Below, piece after piece: positions 731 through 20,645 of a DNA stretch of 64,000 bases. The first letter of the stretch is position 1, and each line of letters opens with the position of its first letter. The notes beneath the pieces are model-generated. The model was not told where the DNA came from, searched no databases, and was given only the letters and a program-made list of their open reading frames with translations. This DNA is from Chloroflexota bacterium (GTDB lineage: Bacteria; Chloroflexota; Dehalococcoidia; Lucifugimonadales; Lucifugimonadaceae). The position numbers and the translations under genes were made by a program. The stretch is from contig PBDR01000001.1 of NCBI GenBank assembly GCA_002717385.1, positions 1-64,000 on the forward strand, written 5' to 3'.

Positions 731-1744
731 TTAATCCGATACATGTACTAATAATTTACCGAAATTTTTTCCATTCATAAGATCTATAAATGTTTTTGGA
801 GCATTATCGAAACCTTCACGAATATCCTCTTTATATTTAAGCTTTCCGTCAGAAACCCAAGAAGAAAGCCTTGATAAAGCCTCTTCTTTTTCATCAGCCC
901 AATCGGATACCAACATACCCTGGATCTTAGATCTGGTTCTAATTAAAGTCCATAGATTTCTCGGACCTACTGATTGATCAACATCATTGTATTGAGAAAT
1001 TTGACCACACACTATTACTCTCCCATTTAATGCAATATTATTTATTGCTGCATCAGTTATAGGTCCACCAACATTGTCAAAATAAATATTTAATCCATTT
1101 GAACAATACTTTGAAAGTTTTTTTTCTATATCGTCAGTTTTGTAATTAATCCCAATATCGAATCCGAGATCATTAGTAATATAGTTAATTTTTTCATCTG
1201 ATCCTGCTATACCTATGACTTTGCAACCAGACATTTTTCCTATCTGCCCAACCACAGCTCCAACTGCTCCAGATGCTGCTGATATTACCAATGTATCACC
1301 AGGTACCGGTTTTCCGATTTTCAGTAAACCAAAATAAGCTGTAAGTCCAGGCATTCCCAAAATTCCCAATGAAGTTGAAATAGGAGCTGATTTAGAAGTA
1401 ATTTTTCTCACACTATATCCTTTTGCAACACCCCATTCTTGCCAACCAATATGAGAAGTTACTATGTCCCCTGTACTAATAGACTTATAATTACTTCTAA
1501 TAACTCTTCCTACTACTTCTCCGGTAATTATTTCTCCTATTTGAACTGGTGTGGAGTACGATTTAGCATCTCTTAACCTGCCTCTCATGTATGGATCAAG
1601 TGACATATATAAGGTTTTAATCAATATTTCGTCATGTTTAATTTCTGGAATTTCATTTACATTAATTTCAAAATCTGAATCTTTTGGATATCCAACAGGT
1701 CTATTTTTTAGTATCCACTGTCTATTTGTTGTTTCTAATGACAA
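731..1744 (-). CDS. Zinc-independent MDR oxidoreductase (curcumin/prostaglandin reductase-like)
   Basis: This is a medium-chain dehydrogenase/reductase of the NADPH-dependent alkenal/curcumin reductase type (CurA, leukotriene B4 12-hydroxydehydrogenase family), which reduces activated C=C bonds. The N-terminal part carries the family signature MSLDPYMRGRL. The Rossmann motif SAASGAVGAVVGQIGK sits mid-protein, followed by GIAGSDEK. No catalytic or structural zinc cysteine cluster is present. The ORF track starts at a TTG at 1756, but GGAG lies inside that extension and is six bases before an in-frame TTG at 1744, so I place the start there (about 337 aa, normal for the family). The physiological substrate is unknown. 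Confidence 0.88.
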   Translation of the reverse strand: MSLETTNRQWILKNRPVGYPKDSDFEINVNEIPEIKHDEILIKTLYMSLDPYMRGRLRDAKSYSTPVQIGEIITGEVVGRVIRSNYKSISTGDIVTSHIGWQEWGVAKGYSVRKITSKSAPISTSLGILGMPGLTAYFGLLKIGKPVPGDTLVISAASGAVGAVVGQIGKMSGCKVIGIAGSDEKINYITNDLGFDIGINYKTDDIEKKLSKYCSNGLNIYFDNVGGPITDAAINNIALNGRVIVCGQISQYNDVDQSVGPRNLWTLIRTRSKIQGMLVSDWADEKEEALSRLSSWVSDGKLKYKEDIREGFDNAPKTFIDLMNGKNFGKLLVHVSD

Positions 1745-1958
1745 AGTAATCTCCAATTTATTTTTCGAATAATAATTTCTTTTGCATGATTATTTTATAT
1801 AAAGAAAATTCTTTTTTATATTAAATTATTCTATTTGGAAAAAATTAATGAAAAATAGTTTATATTTTTCATTTGTTAGTGCTTAAAGGATGAGTTTTTT
1901 TTTATAATCTTCGTTTATATATATCATTTCTAGTTGAATAATTTATTGGAAGTATCAA

Positions 1959-3179
1959 ATGAAAATTACAGATTTAAAATGCGCAATTATAGGACAAAAC
2001 CCTGTAGTTAGGATCGTTACTGATGAGGGTATTGATGGGATAGGTGCTGCTGAAGGTTCAAAACCTTATTTGAAGCCTATGGTAATGTTTTATAAAGATA
2101 GCATCATCGGAAAAGATCCAACAGATGTTGAAAGAGTTATGCTCGGAATTCGTAAGATGGGTGCCTTTAAGCCTTGGGGGGCAGCTGTAAGTGCTATTGA
2201 AATGGCTTTATGGGATATAGCCGGAAAATCTGCCGGTGTGCCAGTATATAAATTATTAGGTGGAAAAGTTAGAGATAAAGTAAGGGTTTATAACGGTAGT
2301 AAAAGAGTTAAAATGACTGGAAATAAACCAGAAGATTATGCCCATAATATGAAAAAGATGCTTGAATTTCCAGAGAAATTTTCAATTATAAAACAAGGAA
2401 TTGCATTTCATGGAGATATGGCCAAAGATTTTCCTGATTACTATTATGGAAATCCGACAACTGCTACCCAAGTTTCAGACGATGGTTTTAGTATTAGAGA
2501 TGGTTCTTATAGAGGTTTAATCACCGAAAGAGGTTTTAATCATACTATTGAATGTATAGAAGCTATGAAAGATGCTCTAGGAGACAAAGTCGGGCTTGCT
2601 CTTGATGTTGGACCAGGAGTAACTGTACCTGATGCTTTGAAGTTAGCTAAAGCAGTTGAACATATGAATATTTTGTGGCTTGAAGATATGATAACAGGAG
2701 ATTATACCCCATATGTGCTAGCAGATCTTTATTCACAAGTTACTCCATATACAACAACTCCAATACATACTGGCGAACAAATTTATCTTAGACAAAATTT
2801 TAAGGATTTATTTGAAAAAAAAGCGGTTAATGTTGTTGGTCCTGATCCGGCAGATGTGGGAGGTATAGCAGAAATGAAATGGATTGCAGAATATGCTGAC
2901 TTGCATGGTATATTAATGGCACCTCATGGTACATTGGATGGTTTGATTGGTTTGGCTGCACATGTTCATCTTGGGGCAACTCTTCCACAAAATTATATAG
3001 CATTTGAATACCCAACCGGTAATCCTGATTGGTGGTATGAAATCGTGGATGGTCTACCTAATCCAATAGTTAAGGACAGTTATATTGAAGTTTGGGATTC
3101 TCCTGGATTAGGAATAACATTTAAGCGAGATTTAGCAGAAAAATATCTGAGAGAAGAAGATAAAGGCTTTTTTGATTAA
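1959..3179 (+). CDS. Enolase-superfamily (MR/MLE) dehydratase-like protein, paralog 1
   Basis: Mandelate racemase/muconate lactonizing enzyme family member of 406 aa. These enzymes abstract the proton alpha to a carboxylate using Mg2+, and many dehydrate sugar acids. The N-terminal capping domain contains ISAIEMALWDIAGKSAGVPVYKLLGGK-like sequence. Metal-ligand positions are visible as LALDVGPG (Asp), LWLEDM (Glu) and HTGEQ (Glu), and a later APHG supplies a candidate general acid/base His. The usual KxK barrel motif reads IIKQG here, and the D-x-H pattern of galactonate/mannonate dehydratases is replaced by DVG, so it belongs to another subgroup than the two paralogs at 38 and 44 kb. There is a GGAAG ribosome-binding site before the ATG. 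The gene stands alone beside tRNA-Phe. Confidence 0.88.
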   Translation: MKITDLKCAIIGQNPVVRIVTDEGIDGIGAAEGSKPYLKPMVMFYKDSIIGKDPTDVERVMLGIRKMGAFKPWGAAVSAIEMALWDIAGKSAGVPVYKLLGGKVRDKVRVYNGSKRVKMTGNKPEDYAHNMKKMLEFPEKFSIIKQGIAFHGDMAKDFPDYYYGNPTTATQVSDDGFSIRDGSYRGLITERGFNHTIECIEAMKDALGDKVGLALDVGPGVTVPDALKLAKAVEHMNILWLEDMITGDYTPYVLADLYSQVTPYTTTPIHTGEQIYLRQNFKDLFEKKAVNVVGPDPADVGGIAEMKWIAEYADLHGILMAPHGTLDGLIGLAAHVHLGATLPQNYIAFEYPTGNPDWWYEIVDGLPNPIVKDSYIEVWDSPGLGITFKRDLAEKYLREEDKGFFD

Positions 3180-3202
3180 TTAGGAATGTTATTTTTATTT
3201 GG

Positions 3203-3278
3203 TGGTGCCGAGAGGCAGAATCGAACTGCCGACACATGGATTTTCAGTCCATTGCTCTACCGACTGAGCTATCTCGGC
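3203..3278 (-). tRNA. tRNA-Phe (anticodon GAA), CCA encoded
   Basis: The minus strand gives a 76-nt cloverleaf: acceptor GCCGAGA paired with TCTCGGC, discriminator A and encoded CCA. The D-arm is AGCTCAGTCGGTAGAGC, the anticodon loop is ACTGAAAAT (anticodon GAA) and the T-arm is GGCAGTTCGATTCTGCC. All stems are complete. Confidence 0.97.
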
Positions 3279-3434
3279 CCTGATCGTATAAGGATATCGT
3301 AATTTGCGATAGTAAATCAATCAAGTTATATAAGGCTTTTTAGTGATAAAAACAAAAATATACATTGTTATAATTTATGTCTGATATCTATGAAAATATA
3401 ATTGTTTTTTTAAATTTCAACTCTAGGAGTATAC

Positions 3435-4403
3435 ATGCCACCTCTTATAATCGCATCTACTAAACCGCGAATGGGTAAAACTTCTTTAGTTGCGTCAATA
3501 GCACATATTTTAGGGTCAGAATCTTCTGATATCAAAATTGGTGTACTACCCAGTAATGAAAATGCACAAAAGGATATAGAAAATATAAAAAAATTATTAT
3601 CAAGAAAAAAAAGATGTCAAATTACCCAAGATTTTTTTATAGGTTCGAAGAATAAGAAAAAATCATTCTCTGATATTTTGAAATCTAAAGGTATTATAGA
3701 AGGTTCAGATGATGTTAGATCTAATATGTCTTTGGCTGAAGATCTTGATGGTAGAATTTTGTTGATAGTAAATTTTGGTGACGATATTATAAATATTGCA
3801 AAAAAATATAGAGATAGATTATTAGGGGTGATTGTTAATAATGTATCTAAACATCGAATCTGGAATATTGAGAATCAATTAATTCCAGAATTGAATAATA
3901 AAAAAATTAAATTTTTAGGTTGGATACCGGATGAACGTAAATTTTTAGCTCCATCTATTAGTGATGTTGTCAATCATTTAGATGGAGAATATGTAACCGA
4001 AAAATATAACGATAAAAATCTTCTTGATAATTTTTTAATAGGAGGTCTAGTATTAGACTGGGGTCCGACATACTTTTCTATACATGAAAAAACTGGTGTT
4101 ATTGTACGTGGAGATAGGCCTGATGTTCAGCTTGCCGCATTACATACGGAAAAAACGAAAGCGATTTTTTTAACTAAAGGTTTAAAACCTGTTGAATATG
4201 TTTTTTATGAAGCTCAACAATCGAAAATACCTCTGGTGGTGGTATCTGGAGATACTCACGATGTAGCAGAAAAACTAGAAGACTTGCAGCCAAAAATTGA
4301 TTTTAATCATAAAGAAAAATTGGATTATATGGTAAAGCTGGTTAAAGGTAACGTTGATATTAGTTTAATCATTAATGCTCTTGAGAAAACTCCTACAGGC
4401 TAA
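3435..4403 (+). CDS. P-loop / DRTGG-domain protein (phosphotransacetylase N-terminal-like)
   Basis: This 322-aa protein combines a BioD/MinD-like P-loop domain (STKPRMGKTSL near residue 8-18) with a C-terminal DRTGG domain (roughly residues 195-300, containing VIVRGDRPDVQLAAL and VVVSGDTHDVAEKLEDL). This is the architecture found at the N-terminus of long phosphate acetyltransferases and in free-standing regulators, but no acetyltransferase catalytic domain follows. A regulatory or sensor role is therefore inferred, and the ligand is unknown. An AGGAG site five bases before the ATG supports the start. pcrA begins 73 bp downstream on the same strand. Confidence 0.75.
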   Translation: MPPLIIASTKPRMGKTSLVASIAHILGSESSDIKIGVLPSNENAQKDIENIKKLLSRKKRCQITQDFFIGSKNKKKSFSDILKSKGIIEGSDDVRSNMSLAEDLDGRILLIVNFGDDIINIAKKYRDRLLGVIVNNVSKHRIWNIENQLIPELNNKKIKFLGWIPDERKFLAPSISDVVNHLDGEYVTEKYNDKNLLDNFLIGGLVLDWGPTYFSIHEKTGVIVRGDRPDVQLAALHTEKTKAIFLTKGLKPVEYVFYEAQQSKIPLVVVSGDTHDVAEKLEDLQPKIDFNHKEKLDYMVKLVKGNVDISLIINALEKTPTG

Positions 4404-4476
4404 TACAATTTTTTCTATCCAAAATTTTACGTCTAAAATAATTTCAGTATGAATTTATTTTTAGTAAAGTAGATAT

Positions 4477-6741
4477 ATGCCCAATATGTCAATAAAAAAA
4501 ACTATTCTTTCAGGCTTATCAGATAGACAAAAAGAGGCTGTTACGCATACTGAAGGACCATTATTGTTAATAGCTGGACCTGGTTCAGGAAAAACTAGAG
4601 TAATGGCTCATAGAGTAGCCTACTTAGTTGCTGTAAAAAAAATTCCTACGAATAATATTCTTGCTGTAACTTTTACCAATAAAGCTGCAAGAGAACTGAA
4701 AGAAAGATGCGAAAGATTAGTTAGTTATCAAAAAGAATTTTTACAAGTTCGAACATTTCATGGGTTTTGTTCTAGAATTTTGCGTTTTGAAGGTGAAAAT
4801 ATAGGTTTAAGTAGGGATTTTTCAATTTTTGATGAAGATGATCAGAAAAAAGTAATAAAAAGATCATTTGAAGATGAAAACATTGATATTAAACAACATT
4901 CTCCAGGGAAAATTATATCTGTGATATCAAAATTAAAAAATTCGATCATATCTCCTGAAAAATTTTCAAATGAGGTTACAAATTTTAGTGAAGAAATAAT
5001 ATCTAGAATTTTTTCTAGATATCAAGATATATTACTAAAATCTAACGCTGTTGATTTTGATGATTTATTATTAAAGACTTTTCATATTTTTGATGATAAT
5101 AAATATATTTTAGATAAATATTCTGATCTATATAGATATATTCAAATTGATGAATTTCAAGACACGAACCCGTTACAATTTAGAGTTACTAAATTGTTAT
5201 CTGATCAAAACCGTAATTTGTGTGTAGTTGGTGATCCTGATCAATCAATTTATTCTTGGAGATATGCAGATCCTACTAATTTAACTGAATTTAAAAAATC
5301 TTTTCCAGAGTCAACTACAATTACTCTCGATCAAAGTTATCGTTCTACCCAGAACATTCTTAATGCTGCTAATTCATTAATAAATAACAACTCTGCAAGA
5401 TCAGATAAAAATTTATGGACCAACAATGGTTCTGGAGGCAAATTAATCCTATATGAAACTAATTCGGAAGAGGATGAAGCTCGAATAGTATTAAATGAAA
5501 TTAAACGTTTAAATCAATCAGAAAATATACCTCTCGATGAAATTGCGATAATGTACCGAGTAAATGCTCAGTCAAGAAGTTTTGAAGTTATATGTAATCG
5601 ATTAGCTATTCGTTATAGATTAATAGGGGGAGTTAAATTTTATGATCGTCAAGAAGTAAAAGATATATTGGCATATTTAAGGTTAGTTAGCAATAAATCT
5701 GATGATACTGCTTTACTCAGAATTATTAATACTCCTCGTAGAGGAATATCCGATAGAACGGTTTCTGAGATTACAAGATTAGCTAGGGAAGAAGGTAGCA
5801 CTATATTTGAAATTATTTCTCTTATTAAAGAAGAAAAAATCAAAACTAATTTAATCCCCAGAGCAATTAAGAGTATCAGTGAATTTATTGAGTTAGTAAA
5901 TAATATATTTGAAGTTTCAAATCAAATGGATATTACTGATTTAATTAATTACATTATTGATAAAACTGAGTATCGTTCTTATTTAAGAAGAGACGAAGAA
6001 AAATCTATTACTAGGTTAGAGAATATTAATGAATTAATAGCCTCATCTGACCAATATATAGGTTTAGATTCTGATGTTCAATTGAGTAGCTTTTTAGAAA
6101 ATTTGGCTCTTGTATCTAGTGTAGATTTTCTAGAAACGGGAGATCAAATAGATTCTAATTCTGAAGAACTTACATTAATTACTTTACATCAAGCCAAAGG
6201 TTTGGAATATAAAGTTGTTTTTTTGGTAGGTTGTGAAGATGGTTTGCTGCCCCATATGATGAGTATTGGTGATATTGAAGCTTTAGAGGAAGAAAGAAGG
6301 ATTTGTTATGTTGGGATTACACGTGCTAAAAGTCACCTTTATTTTTCTTATTCAACTACTCGAATGTTTCGAGGTTCTTTTGGAGGACAAATTTTATCAC
6401 GATTTATAACTGAGATTCCCGAACATTTGATTGTCAGAAAACGTAATATGGGATATTCAAATTTTCATATGCCAGAAAATTCTGTTTCTTATAATAAAGA
6501 TAAATTGGATCTTAAAACTCAGAAAAATAGTAGATCTGAGAAATTAATATTTCTCACTGGTTCAAAAGTCAAACATGATATATTTGGAGAAGGAATAGTA
6601 ATGAAAAATTTTGGTGAGGATGGTGAAGTTTTATTTTCTAACTTTGGAATTAAAAAGTTAATGTGGAATTATGCTCCAATTATTTTATTGGAAGATCAAA
6701 ATGAAATTAACTTTATTGATCCAGAAATTGATTCAGCGTAA
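4477..6741 (+). CDS. pcrA: ATP-dependent DNA helicase, UvrD/PcrA family
   Basis: Superfamily 1A 3'-5' DNA helicase of 754 aa, the usual size for PcrA/UvrD, acting in nucleotide-excision and mismatch repair and in removing blocks at replication forks. Visible motifs in order are GPGSGKTR (Walker A, residue ~35), FTNKAARELKER (Ia), DEFQDTNPLQ (II), GDPDQSIYSWRYAD (III), QSYRST (IV), TLHQAKGLEYKVVFLVGCEDGLLPH (V) and VGITRAK (VI). The C-terminus ends with a Tudor-like segment (GSKVKHDIFGEGIV) characteristic of PcrA, which binds RNA polymerase. No key residue is missing. A small membrane protein gene follows after 5 bp, probably in the same transcript. Confidence 0.96.
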   Translation: MPNMSIKKTILSGLSDRQKEAVTHTEGPLLLIAGPGSGKTRVMAHRVAYLVAVKKIPTNNILAVTFTNKAARELKERCERLVSYQKEFLQVRTFHGFCSRILRFEGENIGLSRDFSIFDEDDQKKVIKRSFEDENIDIKQHSPGKIISVISKLKNSIISPEKFSNEVTNFSEEIISRIFSRYQDILLKSNAVDFDDLLLKTFHIFDDNKYILDKYSDLYRYIQIDEFQDTNPLQFRVTKLLSDQNRNLCVVGDPDQSIYSWRYADPTNLTEFKKSFPESTTITLDQSYRSTQNILNAANSLINNNSARSDKNLWTNNGSGGKLILYETNSEEDEARIVLNEIKRLNQSENIPLDEIAIMYRVNAQSRSFEVICNRLAIRYRLIGGVKFYDRQEVKDILAYLRLVSNKSDDTALLRIINTPRRGISDRTVSEITRLAREEGSTIFEIISLIKEEKIKTNLIPRAIKSISEFIELVNNIFEVSNQMDITDLINYIIDKTEYRSYLRRDEEKSITRLENINELIASSDQYIGLDSDVQLSSFLENLALVSSVDFLETGDQIDSNSEELTLITLHQAKGLEYKVVFLVGCEDGLLPHMMSIGDIEALEEERRICYVGITRAKSHLYFSYSTTRMFRGSFGGQILSRFITEIPEHLIVRKRNMGYSNFHMPENSVSYNKDKLDLKTQKNSRSEKLIFLTGSKVKHDIFGEGIVMKNFGEDGEVLFSNFGIKKLMWNYAPIILLEDQNEINFIDPEIDSA

Positions 6742-15078: not shown

Positions 15079-15558
15079 TTATATTTTGTTTTTAAGATAA
15101 TCTTTTTGATAAGGTGGTGTGATTTGATCTTTTCCAGCTTTTTCTTGTTCAGTAATATATTTTGAAGGACATTTTACTGTAATGTTACTTGCTATGAAAA
15201 TTCCATCTTCTTTTTTGTGACCTTGTAAAATTATTTCTGAATGTTTATTAAAGAAAACTTGCCCAATTTCACCTTTATATTTAACTCGTAATTCTCTAGT
15301 ATTTCCTTCATCAACAATTGAAAAATAAGCGGTTAATCCATCAGGGTCCTTATGGTAAGAATTTTCAACTAGTTTTCCTGATACTCCCAAAACTTCATTA
15401 TTGATAGATTCAATGTTTAAAGTTTCTTCCACACTGAGATACTTAACAGTGTAATTTGAAAGAAGTACGAACCCGAAATAAAATATTACTATTCCAACCA
15501 CAACAAATGATAATATAATTTTAAATTTTCTGTTCAGTAAAATACTTGTTTGAGTCAT
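15079..15558 (-). CDS. ccmE: Cytochrome c maturation protein CcmE, CxxxY type
   Basis: A 159-aa heme chaperone with one N-terminal transmembrane helix (residues ~13-33) and a periplasmic OB-fold domain (VSGKLVENSYHKDP..., RELRVKYKGEIGQVFF). CcmE takes heme from CcmC and passes it to the cytochrome c synthetase. In classical CcmE the heme is bound by a His in an HxxxY motif. Here the corresponding site reads VKCPSKYI, i.e. the CxxxY variant described for some archaea and sulfate reducers. It is the last gene of the minus-strand ccmA-B-C-(CcmD-like)-E group. Confidence 0.9.
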   Translation of the reverse strand: MTQTSILLNRKFKIILSFVVVGIVIFYFGFVLLSNYTVKYLSVEETLNIESINNEVLGVSGKLVENSYHKDPDGLTAYFSIVDEGNTRELRVKYKGEIGQVFFNKHSEIILQGHKKEDGIFIASNITVKCPSKYITEQEKAGKDQITPPYQKDYLKNKI

Positions 15559-15586: not shown

Positions 15587-16114
15587 TCATTTTGATTTTA
15601 GTAGTTTTATTTCTTCTTTTATATTTAATAAACGTCTTGACAGATAAATGAGATATCCAAAGAAAGATAACCATGCAAGTGCAAAAACTATAAAAAGATA
15701 GTTTAAATTTGTCTTGAGATTTTCAGAATTTTTTGTCGTTATAGAATGAGCATATTTCGAATGGTGTAAGATCGTAATTGGGGATAACATATTTTGCTGA
15801 TCATTTAATCTTTTGATAGATTCATTAATGTCATTACTGAATCTATCAATCCATCTTTCACCAACTGCATTATCCAAGCCTAGTACTGTATCTGAAGTGA
15901 TTATTATATCGTATATTACTCCATTATTATCAGTTATAGATAAAATTGTATTTTCATTCGTAGATTCAATAGCAGAAATAAAACCATTTATAATTTCATC
16001 TTCACCATCATCATCTGAATATATTTTTTGAGGAATCAGCAAGAATGAAATTAAAAACAATAAAGCTAGTAAGATATATGAAATATTTTTTGTTTTGAAA
16101 TATTTATTTTCCAA
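15587..16114 (-). CDS. CcmD-tailed periplasmic protein of the ccm cluster
   Basis: This 175-aa protein sits where ccmD is expected, between ccmC and ccmE. It has an N-terminal signal or anchor helix (ISYILLALLFLISFLLI), an extracytoplasmic acidic domain of ~110 residues (EIINGFISAIESTNENTILSITD onward), and a C-terminal helix followed by a basic amphipathic tail (LSFFGYLIYLSRRLLNIKEEIKLLK). That tail resembles the small CcmD protein, which holds holo-CcmE at the CcmABC complex. The extra periplasmic domain is not part of ordinary CcmD (about 50-70 aa). The fusion idea is inference from context and the tail motif. Confidence 0.65.
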   Translation of the reverse strand: MENKYFKTKNISYILLALLFLISFLLIPQKIYSDDDGEDEIINGFISAIESTNENTILSITDNNGVIYDIIITSDTVLGLDNAVGERWIDRFSNDINESIKRLNDQQNMLSPITILHHSKYAHSITTKNSENLKTNLNYLFIVFALAWLSFFGYLIYLSRRLLNIKEEIKLLKSK

Positions 16115-16125
16115 TTTAAATCCTT

Positions 16126-16842
16126 TTAAGTTTTATTTATTATGATTAAGTCTATTTCATCTTCATTTTTTCGTAGAGTGTATCTAAGAAAAATTAAAGA
16201 TGATAAAACTAATGTGAAAGTTACTACTGAAAACAATAGAGTAAGAATTATATTTTGAGAAATAAAAGAATCACTGGTTGCTGCTGGACCAGCTATTAAA
16301 GGAGGGTGAGCTCGTTCCCAAAGATTAGCTGCAAAATATATAATTGGTGTATCTATTGCACCAATTATACCTATAACAGCAGAAATTCTTTTTTGCTGGA
16401 TCCCCTTAGGAAAATATGCTCTGAACATCAAATAGGCTATAAAAAGTATAAATAAAATAAGAGAGAAAGTTAATTTTGCTTCACCTGTCCAAAAAACACC
16501 CCATACAGGTCTAGCCCATAACATTCCTGATAGTAGCATCATTGCACCAAATATTGCTCCAGATTCTGCAGCGGATAGAGCAATTCTGTCCCATTTTTCA
16601 GCTTTTTTATATAGATACATTATAGATGAAAATGCAACTATACAAATTGCTGCCATACTGCCCCATGCAACAGGGACATGTAAATATAAAATTCTTTGTA
16701 TAGCTCCCTGATTAATTTCAGTTGGGACCCAAACGAAAATCATCCACATGTCAATAACAACAATTATGCCGGTAAATATGATAAATATATTAATAAAATT
16801 TAATTTGGTTATTTTCATGGGATCAAAACTTTTTAAAACCAA
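16126..16842 (-). CDS. ccmC: Heme transporter/handling protein CcmC
   Basis: A 238-aa, six-helix membrane protein of the heme-handling family. The His-containing LYLHVPVAWGSM segment, the tryptophan-rich periplasmic loop GMLWARPVWGVFWTGEAKLT and a late IYFAANLWERAHPP region are visible. CcmC attaches heme to CcmE with CcmABD. The WWD-type loop has GEAKLT where many CcmC proteins have WDARLT. It lies 13 bp after ccmB in the same transcript direction. Confidence 0.9.
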   Translation of the reverse strand: MVLKSFDPMKITKLNFINIFIIFTGIIVVIDMWMIFVWVPTEINQGAIQRILYLHVPVAWGSMAAICIVAFSSIMYLYKKAEKWDRIALSAAESGAIFGAMMLLSGMLWARPVWGVFWTGEAKLTFSLILFILFIAYLMFRAYFPKGIQQKRISAVIGIIGAIDTPIIYFAANLWERAHPPLIAGPAATSDSFISQNIILTLLFSVVTFTLVLSSLIFLRYTLRKNEDEIDLIIINKT

Positions 16843-16855
16843 TTTTAATTGTAAT

Positions 16856-17527
16856 TTATTCTTGTAGAATGTGATCGAATAAAAGTAGTGAAATCAAGAA
16901 AAAGATCGCATCATAAAATAACACAAAGAATATCCATGATTGTATATCAGAAAAATTATTATTTTGAATAATTTTGTCCATACAATCGACACCAGCAAAT
17001 AAAAGTGGCGTGACAGCGGGGAAAAAAACAAGTGATAACATTACTTCTCTTGCCCTAACTTTGATGCTCATTATTGCAAAAAAAGTCCCTAATGTAGACA
17101 ATCCAAAAGATATTATTATTGCTAATAATAAGTATTCTATTTTGAGGATATTAATATTGAACAGAATTGATGTGATAGGCAATGCAAAAACAGATGAAAT
17201 TAGGACTAGGATAAAATTACTAGTAAATTTACCAAAAAAAATTATATCTTTAGATATAGGTGATAAGATTAATGCTTCAAACGCACCATTTTCAATCTCT
17301 ATAGAAAATCTTCTGCCTAATGCTATTGTGAAAGAAAAAATTATAGCTGACCAATATATTGCTGGTACAATTTTCTGAGTTTCCTTAGTATTTACATCTA
17401 TAGAAAAAACAAAAATTGATAAAACTAATGTTGAAAATCCTAATATTGTAAATAAAACTTCTTTTCTTCTTAATTCTAAAATGAGATCTCTTTTAGCGAT
17501 ATTCCATATAGTTTTAAAAGGGTTCAA
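16856..17527 (-). CDS. ccmB: Heme exporter permease CcmB
   Basis: A 223-aa, six-helix protein of the CcmB family, the permease partner of CcmA. It starts with a cytoplasmic IWNIAKRDLILELRRKEVL and has IYWSAIIFSFTIALGRRFSIEIENGAFEALILSPISKDIIFFGKF, the characteristic early part of CcmB. Together with CcmA it powers release of holo-CcmE from CcmCD. It overlaps ccmA by 4 bp. Confidence 0.9.
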   Translation of the reverse strand: MNPFKTIWNIAKRDLILELRRKEVLFTILGFSTLVLSIFVFSIDVNTKETQKIVPAIYWSAIIFSFTIALGRRFSIEIENGAFEALILSPISKDIIFFGKFTSNFILVLISSVFALPITSILFNINILKIEYLLLAIIISFGLSTLGTFFAIMSIKVRAREVMLSLVFFPAVTPLLFAGVDCMDKIIQNNNFSDIQSWIFFVLFYDAIFFLISLLLFDHILQE

Positions 17528-18210
17528 AATATTAGATTCTTTCTATCCTTTGTAACGTTTATCAAAGATGAATTTTTCATAAACAATACTTGATCGGCTA
17601 TATCAATCCATTTTTCCAATCTGTGTGATGCTAGTAAAATACTAGTTCCTAATTTTTTCTCCTCTATAATTTCTCTAAATAAAATTTCTTGGCTTTGTTT
17701 GTCTAAACCCGAGTCAGGCTCATCCAAGATAATTAACTTTGGGTTATTTAAGAAAGCTTTAGCATTTGCTATTCTTTTTATTTGTCCTTGAGATAAATAT
17801 TTTATTTTTTTATCTAAAATTTCTGTTAATTCAAATCTATCTACTATATTTTTAAGGTTTCCTTTTTTATTCGTTATTCCGTATAAATCTGATGAGTATT
17901 CAAGATTTTCTTTTCCAGTAAAATCATCGTACATCATGCTATTATGCATTCCGAATCCAATTTTACTTTTTACTATTTCAAATTCTTTTTTAAGTGAAGT
18001 TTGAAAAATTTTTATTTCACCTTCATCATGTGAGCATAATGAAGAAATAATTCTTATTAAGGTAGTTTTACCCGATCCATTAGATCCTGTAATAAGTACA
18101 AATTCACCCTTACCCATTTCAAAGCTTATATTTTCTAATATTTTCTTATTACCAAAACTTTTATATAGTTGTGATACTTCAAGTAGGTTTATATTTTTTT
18201 GATTTTTCAT
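17524..18210 (-). CDS. ccmA: Heme exporter ABC ATPase CcmA
   Basis: A 228-aa ABC ATPase with Walker A GSNGSGKTT, signature LSQGQIKRI, Walker B LIILDEPDSGLD and a switch histidine (LLASHRLE). It is first in the ccmABC-E group and so the expected CcmA. LSQGQ replaces the canonical LSGGQ, which is common in CcmA. The gene is divergent from the RluB-type gene with a 55-bp gap that must hold both promoters. Confidence 0.92.
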   Translation of the reverse strand: MKNQKNINLLEVSQLYKSFGNKKILENISFEMGKGEFVLITGSNGSGKTTLIRIISSLCSHDEGEIKIFQTSLKKEFEIVKSKIGFGMHNSMMYDDFTGKENLEYSSDLYGITNKKGNLKNIVDRFELTEILDKKIKYLSQGQIKRIANAKAFLNNPKLIILDEPDSGLDKQSQEILFREIIEEKKLGTSILLASHRLEKWIDIADQVLFMKNSSLINVTKDRKNLIF

Positions 18211-19835: not shown

Positions 19836-20645
19836 TTATCCAATAAGATCATAATTTAACCAGTATATTATTAAATATATTCCTACAAGAGAAATTAATA
19901 TTCCAGATAGGTATTTGTACCATTTTGTTACAGATGTTTTTTGTAGATTGGAAATGTTTTTTAAAAAACTAGCCAATAAAGTGATAATTAATATCACTGA
20001 AGTCATTCCAAAAGAGTAACTAATGAATTGTTTTATTCCGTTAAGAAATCCGCCAGTGCTAATTGAATTGGATATAAGAGCTATAAATAATGGTAAGGTA
20101 CAACTAATTGATGCTATTCCATAGGATAAACCATATAAGAAAAAATTTTTGAATTGAGAATTAGTATTGATATTAATCATTGATGACAAATTTTGAGGAA
20201 ATGAAAGATATAAACTTTTTCCAGAAAAGGTATAGATCCCTAAAATTACTAATGAAAATCCTATTATTATAGTTAACCAAGATAAAAGTGGTTGTATAAA
20301 AAGTATTCCCCATGAAATAGCTAATCCAACAGATCCAAAAATACTAACAAACCCCAAACCTAAAGCAAAAGATATTTGGAATGATTTTAAAATTTGATTC
20401 GTAATATTTATTTTCTGTTTTTTTTCATTATTTATTGATAAGAACATAGAGATATATACAGGTAACATTACGAATCCACATGGATTTACAGTTGCAATCA
20501 TACCGGACATAAAAGAGAAACTTAACGGTATAAGAGAATCTATTTTTTTAATGTTAACCGTACTGAAACTTGATAGTTCTAGGATATTCAAAAAAATGTT
20601 TTCTAATATTTCATCAAAAAATAAACCTATTAATAATGAAAACAT
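19836..20645 (-). CDS. ccdA: CcdA/DsbD-type thiol-disulfide transmembrane protein
   Basis: A 269-aa, six-to-seven-helix protein of the CcdA family, which moves reducing equivalents from cytoplasmic thioredoxin across the membrane to keep apocytochrome c heme-binding cysteines reduced. The two conserved redox cysteines are present in ATVNPCGFVMLPVYI and SISCTLPLFI. It complements the ccm genes 1.6 kb away on the same strand, although two genes on the other strand lie between. An extra N-terminal hydrophobic segment precedes the first CcdA helix. Confidence 0.88.
   Translation of the reverse strand: MFSLLIGLFFDEILENIFLNILELSSFSTVNIKKIDSLIPLSFSFMSGMIATVNPCGFVMLPVYISMFLSINNEKKQKINITNQILKSFQISFALGLGFVSIFGSVGLAISWGILFIQPLLSWLTIIIGFSLVILGIYTFSGKSLYLSFPQNLSSMININTNSQFKNFFLYGLSYGIASISCTLPLFIALISNSISTGGFLNGIKQFISYSFGMTSVILIITLLASFLKNISNLQKTSVTKWYKYLSGILISLVGIYLIIYWLNYDLIG

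Follow-up and report, generated by a model that had tools for sequence, protein, structure and literature searches.

A CcmD enlarged by a predicted OB-type domain accompanies a changed CcmC WWD motif in a family of SAR202 bacteria

An enlarged CcmD gene lies between ccmC and ccmE

The window (the whole 64,000-nucleotide stretch of Chloroflexota DNA analysed here) carries a System I operon on its reverse strand in the order ccmA-B-C-X-E. The first gene encodes a ccmA-like ATPase (17524–18210), assigned from its operon position and an NCBIfam ccmA score of 130 bits against a cut-off of 131.6. It is followed by ccmB (16856–17527; Pfam CcmB, 105.9 bits) and by ccmC (16126–16842), which matches the Pfam Cytochrom_C_asm and NCBIfam ccmC models and was aligned to the E. 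coli CcmC chain 7f02_C. The last gene, ccmE (15079–15558; Pfam CcmE, 58.8 bits), is of the Cys type, with an aligned CPSKY motif at 15157–15171. X, flanked by ccmC and ccmE, is an open reading frame for 175 amino acids with a TTG start (15587–16114, reverse strand), which we refer to as OB-CcmD.

The position of this gene is conserved. At the loci of 47 relatives, the ccmD gene directly follows ccmC and precedes ccmE wherever a CcmE was detected. A short gene occupies the identical slot in the short-CcmD relatives examined, and homologous long forms occupy it at all 26 other long-form loci. Because these slot-conserved homologs align with the window protein from end to end, the reading frame is not a chance one, and a mis-called fusion is excluded as well.

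CcmF and CcmH are encoded on another contig, so the System I machine is split over two loci. The second locus (L154, positions 1392–5899; contig C29 of genome G000) places ccmF and ccmH beside genes for a cytochrome c, ActD, and an NrfD-like protein, that is, alternative complex III genes. Within a few genes of the ccm operon, the window also encodes a DsbD_TM/CcdA-type membrane protein (19836–20645, reverse strand; Pfam, 28.5 bits against a cut-off of 27.1), a possible thiol-reduction partner. In one related genome (G018), the OB-ccmD locus appears on two contigs (C6 and C14) with equal scores, probably as an assembly duplicate.

The C-terminal part of the protein is a CcmD

A preliminary description of this DNA had proposed, from gene position and a C-terminal transmembrane helix with a basic tail, that the gene encodes a CcmD fused to an extracytoplasmic domain. 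Profile searches support the CcmD part of this reading. Residues 138–173 (15596–15703, reverse strand) cover all 36 positions of NCBIfam TIGR04391 ("CcmD family protein") at 26.5 bits, above the cut-off of 24; in the genome-level search the gene scores 29.1 bits against the same cut-off, and 21 of the 26 long forms scanned match the model at E ≤ 0.1. The matched segment comprises a CcmD-like transmembrane helix and an amphipathic tail, which the structural model renders as a helix spanning residues 133–174. Hydropathy analysis places hydrophobic segments near residues 8–29 and 140–159, and the C-terminal tail, RLLNIKEEIKLLKSK, is basic. We infer from these features a single anchoring helix with the N-terminus outside and the C-terminus inside. 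A separate short ccmD was also sought: in the assembly, which is about 86% complete, TIGR04391 matches the OB-CcmD gene only, and the classical CcmD model (PF04995) finds no match at E ≤ 10.

Taken together, the profile match, gene slot, predicted topology, and lack of a second CcmD match in this genome point to the gene as CcmD in a Cys-type System I machine, enlarged by a putative extracytoplasmic domain. At 175 residues, it lies beyond the 37–100 residues that a 44-organism survey gives for CcmD (PMC12077264), while its CcmD part is intact; size is a typical feature of CcmD and not a defining one. With the alternative CcmD family described by TIGR04391, the window protein shares the single N-out helix, the basic amphipathic tail, and a gene that adjoins ccmC, but it adds a folded extracytoplasmic domain of about 93 residues that two genera of its own family (g3 and g4) and the rest of the order do without. 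Its slot and topology suggest a role and position like those of E. coli CcmD in the CcmABCD complex (7F04, 8CE1), where the N-terminus likewise lies outside and the C-terminus inside. In contrast, the outside part of E. coli CcmD is only a short amphipathic helix (PMC10457321), and PF04995 is unmatched by the window protein.

The extracytoplasmic domain is predicted to adopt an OB-type fold

The preliminary description had placed a signal helix and an acidic domain of about 110 residues ahead of the CcmD-like part. Both are present. A signal-like hydrophobic helix spans residues 7–28 (16031–16096, reverse strand) by hydropathy and residues 7–25 in the model, and the segment between the two hydrophobic stretches is acidic, with 18 Asp/Glu against 6 Lys/Arg. 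The helix, however, also occurs in most short-form relatives, which leaves the folded domain as the one novelty.

This domain occupies residues 38–130 (15725–16003, reverse strand). AlphaFold modeled the full-length protein with a mean pLDDT of 87 (26 homologs) and the domain alone with a pLDDT of 93.2 and a pTM of 0.83 (43 homologs). From the N-terminus, the full-length model runs through helix 7–25, strands 40–51, 56–61, 67–81, and 87–91, helix 96–109, strands 113–118 and 121–127, and the single long helix 133–174. An OB fold is a five-strand barrel with a helix between strands 3 and 4, and the prediction conforms to it in having strands, a helix, and then two more strands. OB folds predominate among the top Foldseek matches in the PDB (probability up to 1.0, TM-scores of about 0.5–0.6, E-values of 0.003–0.03), which include the anticodon domains of Lys- and Asp-tRNA synthetases, RPA14/32, Stn1/Ten1, and the DP1 subunit of DNA polymerase D. 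As the E-values exceed 1e-3, we base the OB assignment on topology and on the consistency of the matches, and consider it well supported but short of proof. By sequence, no relative of the domain turned up in Pfam or the PDB.

Five residues are invariant across 43 sequences of the domain: Gly44, Gly65, Gly79, Arg87, and Trp88. The Arg-Trp pair (15851–15856, reverse strand) is always preceded by an acidic residue at position 86 and could be a feature of the structural core. No His, Cys, Tyr, or Met of the domain is conserved. A string in the window protein, HHSKY (15752–15766, reverse strand), resembles the HxxxY heme motif; it sits in a hairpin turn, is not conserved across homologs, and looks coincidental.

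The domain is confined to one family

The OB-type domain was found in 63 of 76 genomes and in ten of the 12 genera of the window's family; in one of the 63 (G074), the match is partial and lies at the end of a contig. Genera g3 and g4, represented by seven genomes, have no such domain, and their slot holds a short CcmD. Another 174 genomes of the order gave no credible domain match, and among 400 genomes sampled from the phylum only family members matched convincingly. Two distant matches in that sample, to what reads as a DUF5666-like repeat protein (L111) and to a TetR-like regulator (L113), are unconvincing. A first contig scan with the window protein alone as query gave no match.

Ca. Lucifugimonas marina JH1073, which is in culture, and the metagenome-assembled genome UBA1328 are among the family's named members, which identifies the family as the SAR202 Lucifugimonadaceae, equivalent to GTDB f__UBA1328 (PMC10444878). 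In a tree of CcmB and CcmC, the latter itself the subject of the comparison below, the long forms make up one side of a branch with an SH-aLRT support of 100. Since the other families sampled have short forms, a single gain of the domain is the simplest reading.

A Cys-type CcmE occurs in both long and short systems

The preliminary description had suggested that the extra domain could interact with the Cys-type CcmE encoded next door and that co-occurrence of the two would support the idea. A pairing of the two does not hold up. Every relative with a detected CcmE, whether its CcmD is long or short, carries CPSKY or CPTKY, or CPSKF in genus g9, and only one or two CcmE positions set the long systems apart from the short. 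Because the two kinds of system share the Cys-type motif, co-occurrence does not discriminate between them.

The CPSKF motif of genus g9 (L042, L047, L051) replaces the heme-ligand Tyr with Phe; four CcmE cases with this substitution have been reported, as has Cys-type CcmE from Chloroflexi (PMC3601427). Five loci with short CcmD (L060, L061, L070, L071, and L072, from families f22, f20, f7, f21, and f5) have no CcmE detectable by blastp, and the CcmE of these families may be diverged or encoded elsewhere. The window's system shares with System I* a CcmE with a CxxxY motif, here CPSKY; it is set apart by the presence of CcmH in the genome, the OB-type domain on CcmD, and a Gly-Glu WWD motif in CcmC.

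The CcmC WWD motif changes on the same branch

The WWD motif of CcmC has the consensus WGX(aromatic)WXWDXRLT (PMC3884852) and reads 119-WGTWWVWD-126 in E. coli (PMC10457321). The window CcmC still matches the Cytochrom_C_asm and CcmC models but departs from this consensus with WGVFWTGEAKLT, its aligned segment WGVFWTGE (16480–16503, reverse strand) having Gly-Glu in place of Trp-Asp. All 27 long-form CcmC proteins, the window's included, read W-x-x-(W/F)-W-T-G-E, corresponding to Trp125→Gly and Asp126→Glu. Short-form CcmC retains Trp125 in 21 of 21 cases and Asp126 in 17 of 21. The positions of E. coli Asn181 and Thr182, in the P-His2 loop just before the heme ligand His184, also differ between the two groups; at the former, 20 of 21 short forms have Arg and no long form does. 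Both histidine ligands of the external heme are kept (His55 and His179 in the window CcmC; His60 and His184 in E. coli). CcmF of the same genome has its canonical WGGYWSWD motif intact.

In a codon-pattern search across 250 genomes of the order, 61 of the 63 domain genomes proved to encode WTGEAK no more than 1 kb from the domain. The remaining two have WWTGEPK (G072) or the motif on a separate contig, owing to a contig break (G061), which brings Gly-Glu in place of Trp-Asp to all 63, and the sole match outside the domain genomes is a DNA methylase. In the phylum sample, the stricter WWTGEAK pattern occurs in three genomes, all in the window's family.

Across the branch that separates long from short forms, fully disjoint alignment columns number 6 of 216 in CcmC, 0 of 209 in CcmA, 1 of 219 in CcmB, and 2 of 147 in CcmE. 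The difference between CcmC and CcmA plus CcmB (6/216 versus 1/428) has a Fisher p of 0.007, and CcmC has at most three such columns on every other branch tested. By these alignments, CcmC is the partner that covaries with the OB-type domain among the four proteins compared.

A proposed role at the heme hand-over site

In E. coli, CcmD Tyr17 adjoins and coevolves with Met118 of the WWD motif (PMC9616876), a hydrogen bond from Asp126 to the heme ligand His184 has been predicted (PMC10457321), and release of holo-CcmE needs CcmD (PMC9084895). Since CcmD has its N-terminus outside and touches CcmC beside the WWD motif, the OB-type domain most likely lies over the external heme site of CcmC. We propose that in one SAR202 family the outward, N-terminal side of CcmD grew into a folded OB-type domain that would cap this site, between CcmC and CcmE, where it could assist in holding heme or in positioning and releasing CcmE. 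The domain would compensate for, or permit, the changes in CcmC and would have been selected together with the remodeling; with its invariant acidic-Arg-Trp stretch, it probably took over or reshaped the part of the heme site that CcmC changed. The change of both CcmD and CcmC in one lineage suggests that the heme hand-over site was rebuilt. On balance we lean toward an enlarged CcmD placed over a remodeled CcmC heme site; the CcmD identity, the gene slot, the restriction to one clade, the predicted fold, and the co-occurrence with the CcmC change are results, whereas the contact with CcmC and CcmE and the functional takeover are deduced. A stricter version, in which the domain supplies in trans the Trp, acidic, and Arg contacts that CcmC lost and so forms a two-subunit heme hand-over site in the System I of the Lucifugimonas family, is a tentative idea that we think probably does not hold, and direct replacement of the lost Trp-Asp by Arg87 and Trp88 is speculation.

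The strongest competing explanation is that the extra domain of an otherwise ordinary CcmD is neutral or does no more than stabilize, and that the CcmC changes are clade drift that fell on the same branch by chance. The CcmC change occurred once on the tree, so it may coincide with the domain gain without a functional link; both traits have a single origin, and several of the CcmC changes (positions 131, 140, and 144 in the numbering of the window CcmC) lie away from the WWD motif. We nevertheless consider drift unlikely, as the domain has been retained with invariant residues in ten genera, including small, streamlined genomes, and the changes strike one of the most conserved motifs of CcmC, with almost none in CcmA and CcmB. 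OB folds often bind partners, and the domain might instead serve step 2 as a docking arm that brings CcmFH or apocytochromes to CcmABCDE, a physical link that could be useful where the genes for CcmF and CcmH lie at another locus; this seems improbable given that, among CcmA, CcmB, CcmC, and CcmE, the covarying partner found is CcmC and no step 2 protein. That the domain is a second, CcmE-related heme carrier, passing heme from CcmC to CcmE, is very improbable: CcmE is likewise an OB fold outside the membrane (PMC3884852), and HHSKY is reminiscent of its motif, but the domain lacks conserved ligands and the C/HxxxY heme-binding tail of CcmE, has a helix between strands, is anchored at its C-terminus and not, like CcmE, at its N-terminus, reaches a probability of only 2.1 in profile comparison with CcmE, and does not have CcmE among the 50 fold matches listed.

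In the open-access literature searched, where absence is not proof, we came across neither an OB-bearing CcmD nor a WWD motif with Gly-Glu. The enlarged CcmD over a remodeled CcmC site, if correct, bears on how CcmD helps CcmC to load and release CcmE. A lineage in which the gain of a CcmD domain is joined to a WWD change offers a ready-made test of Trp125 and Asp126 and of the outer face of CcmD, and the pair occurs in deep-ocean SAR202 bacteria, the cultured Ca. Lucifugimonas marina among them.
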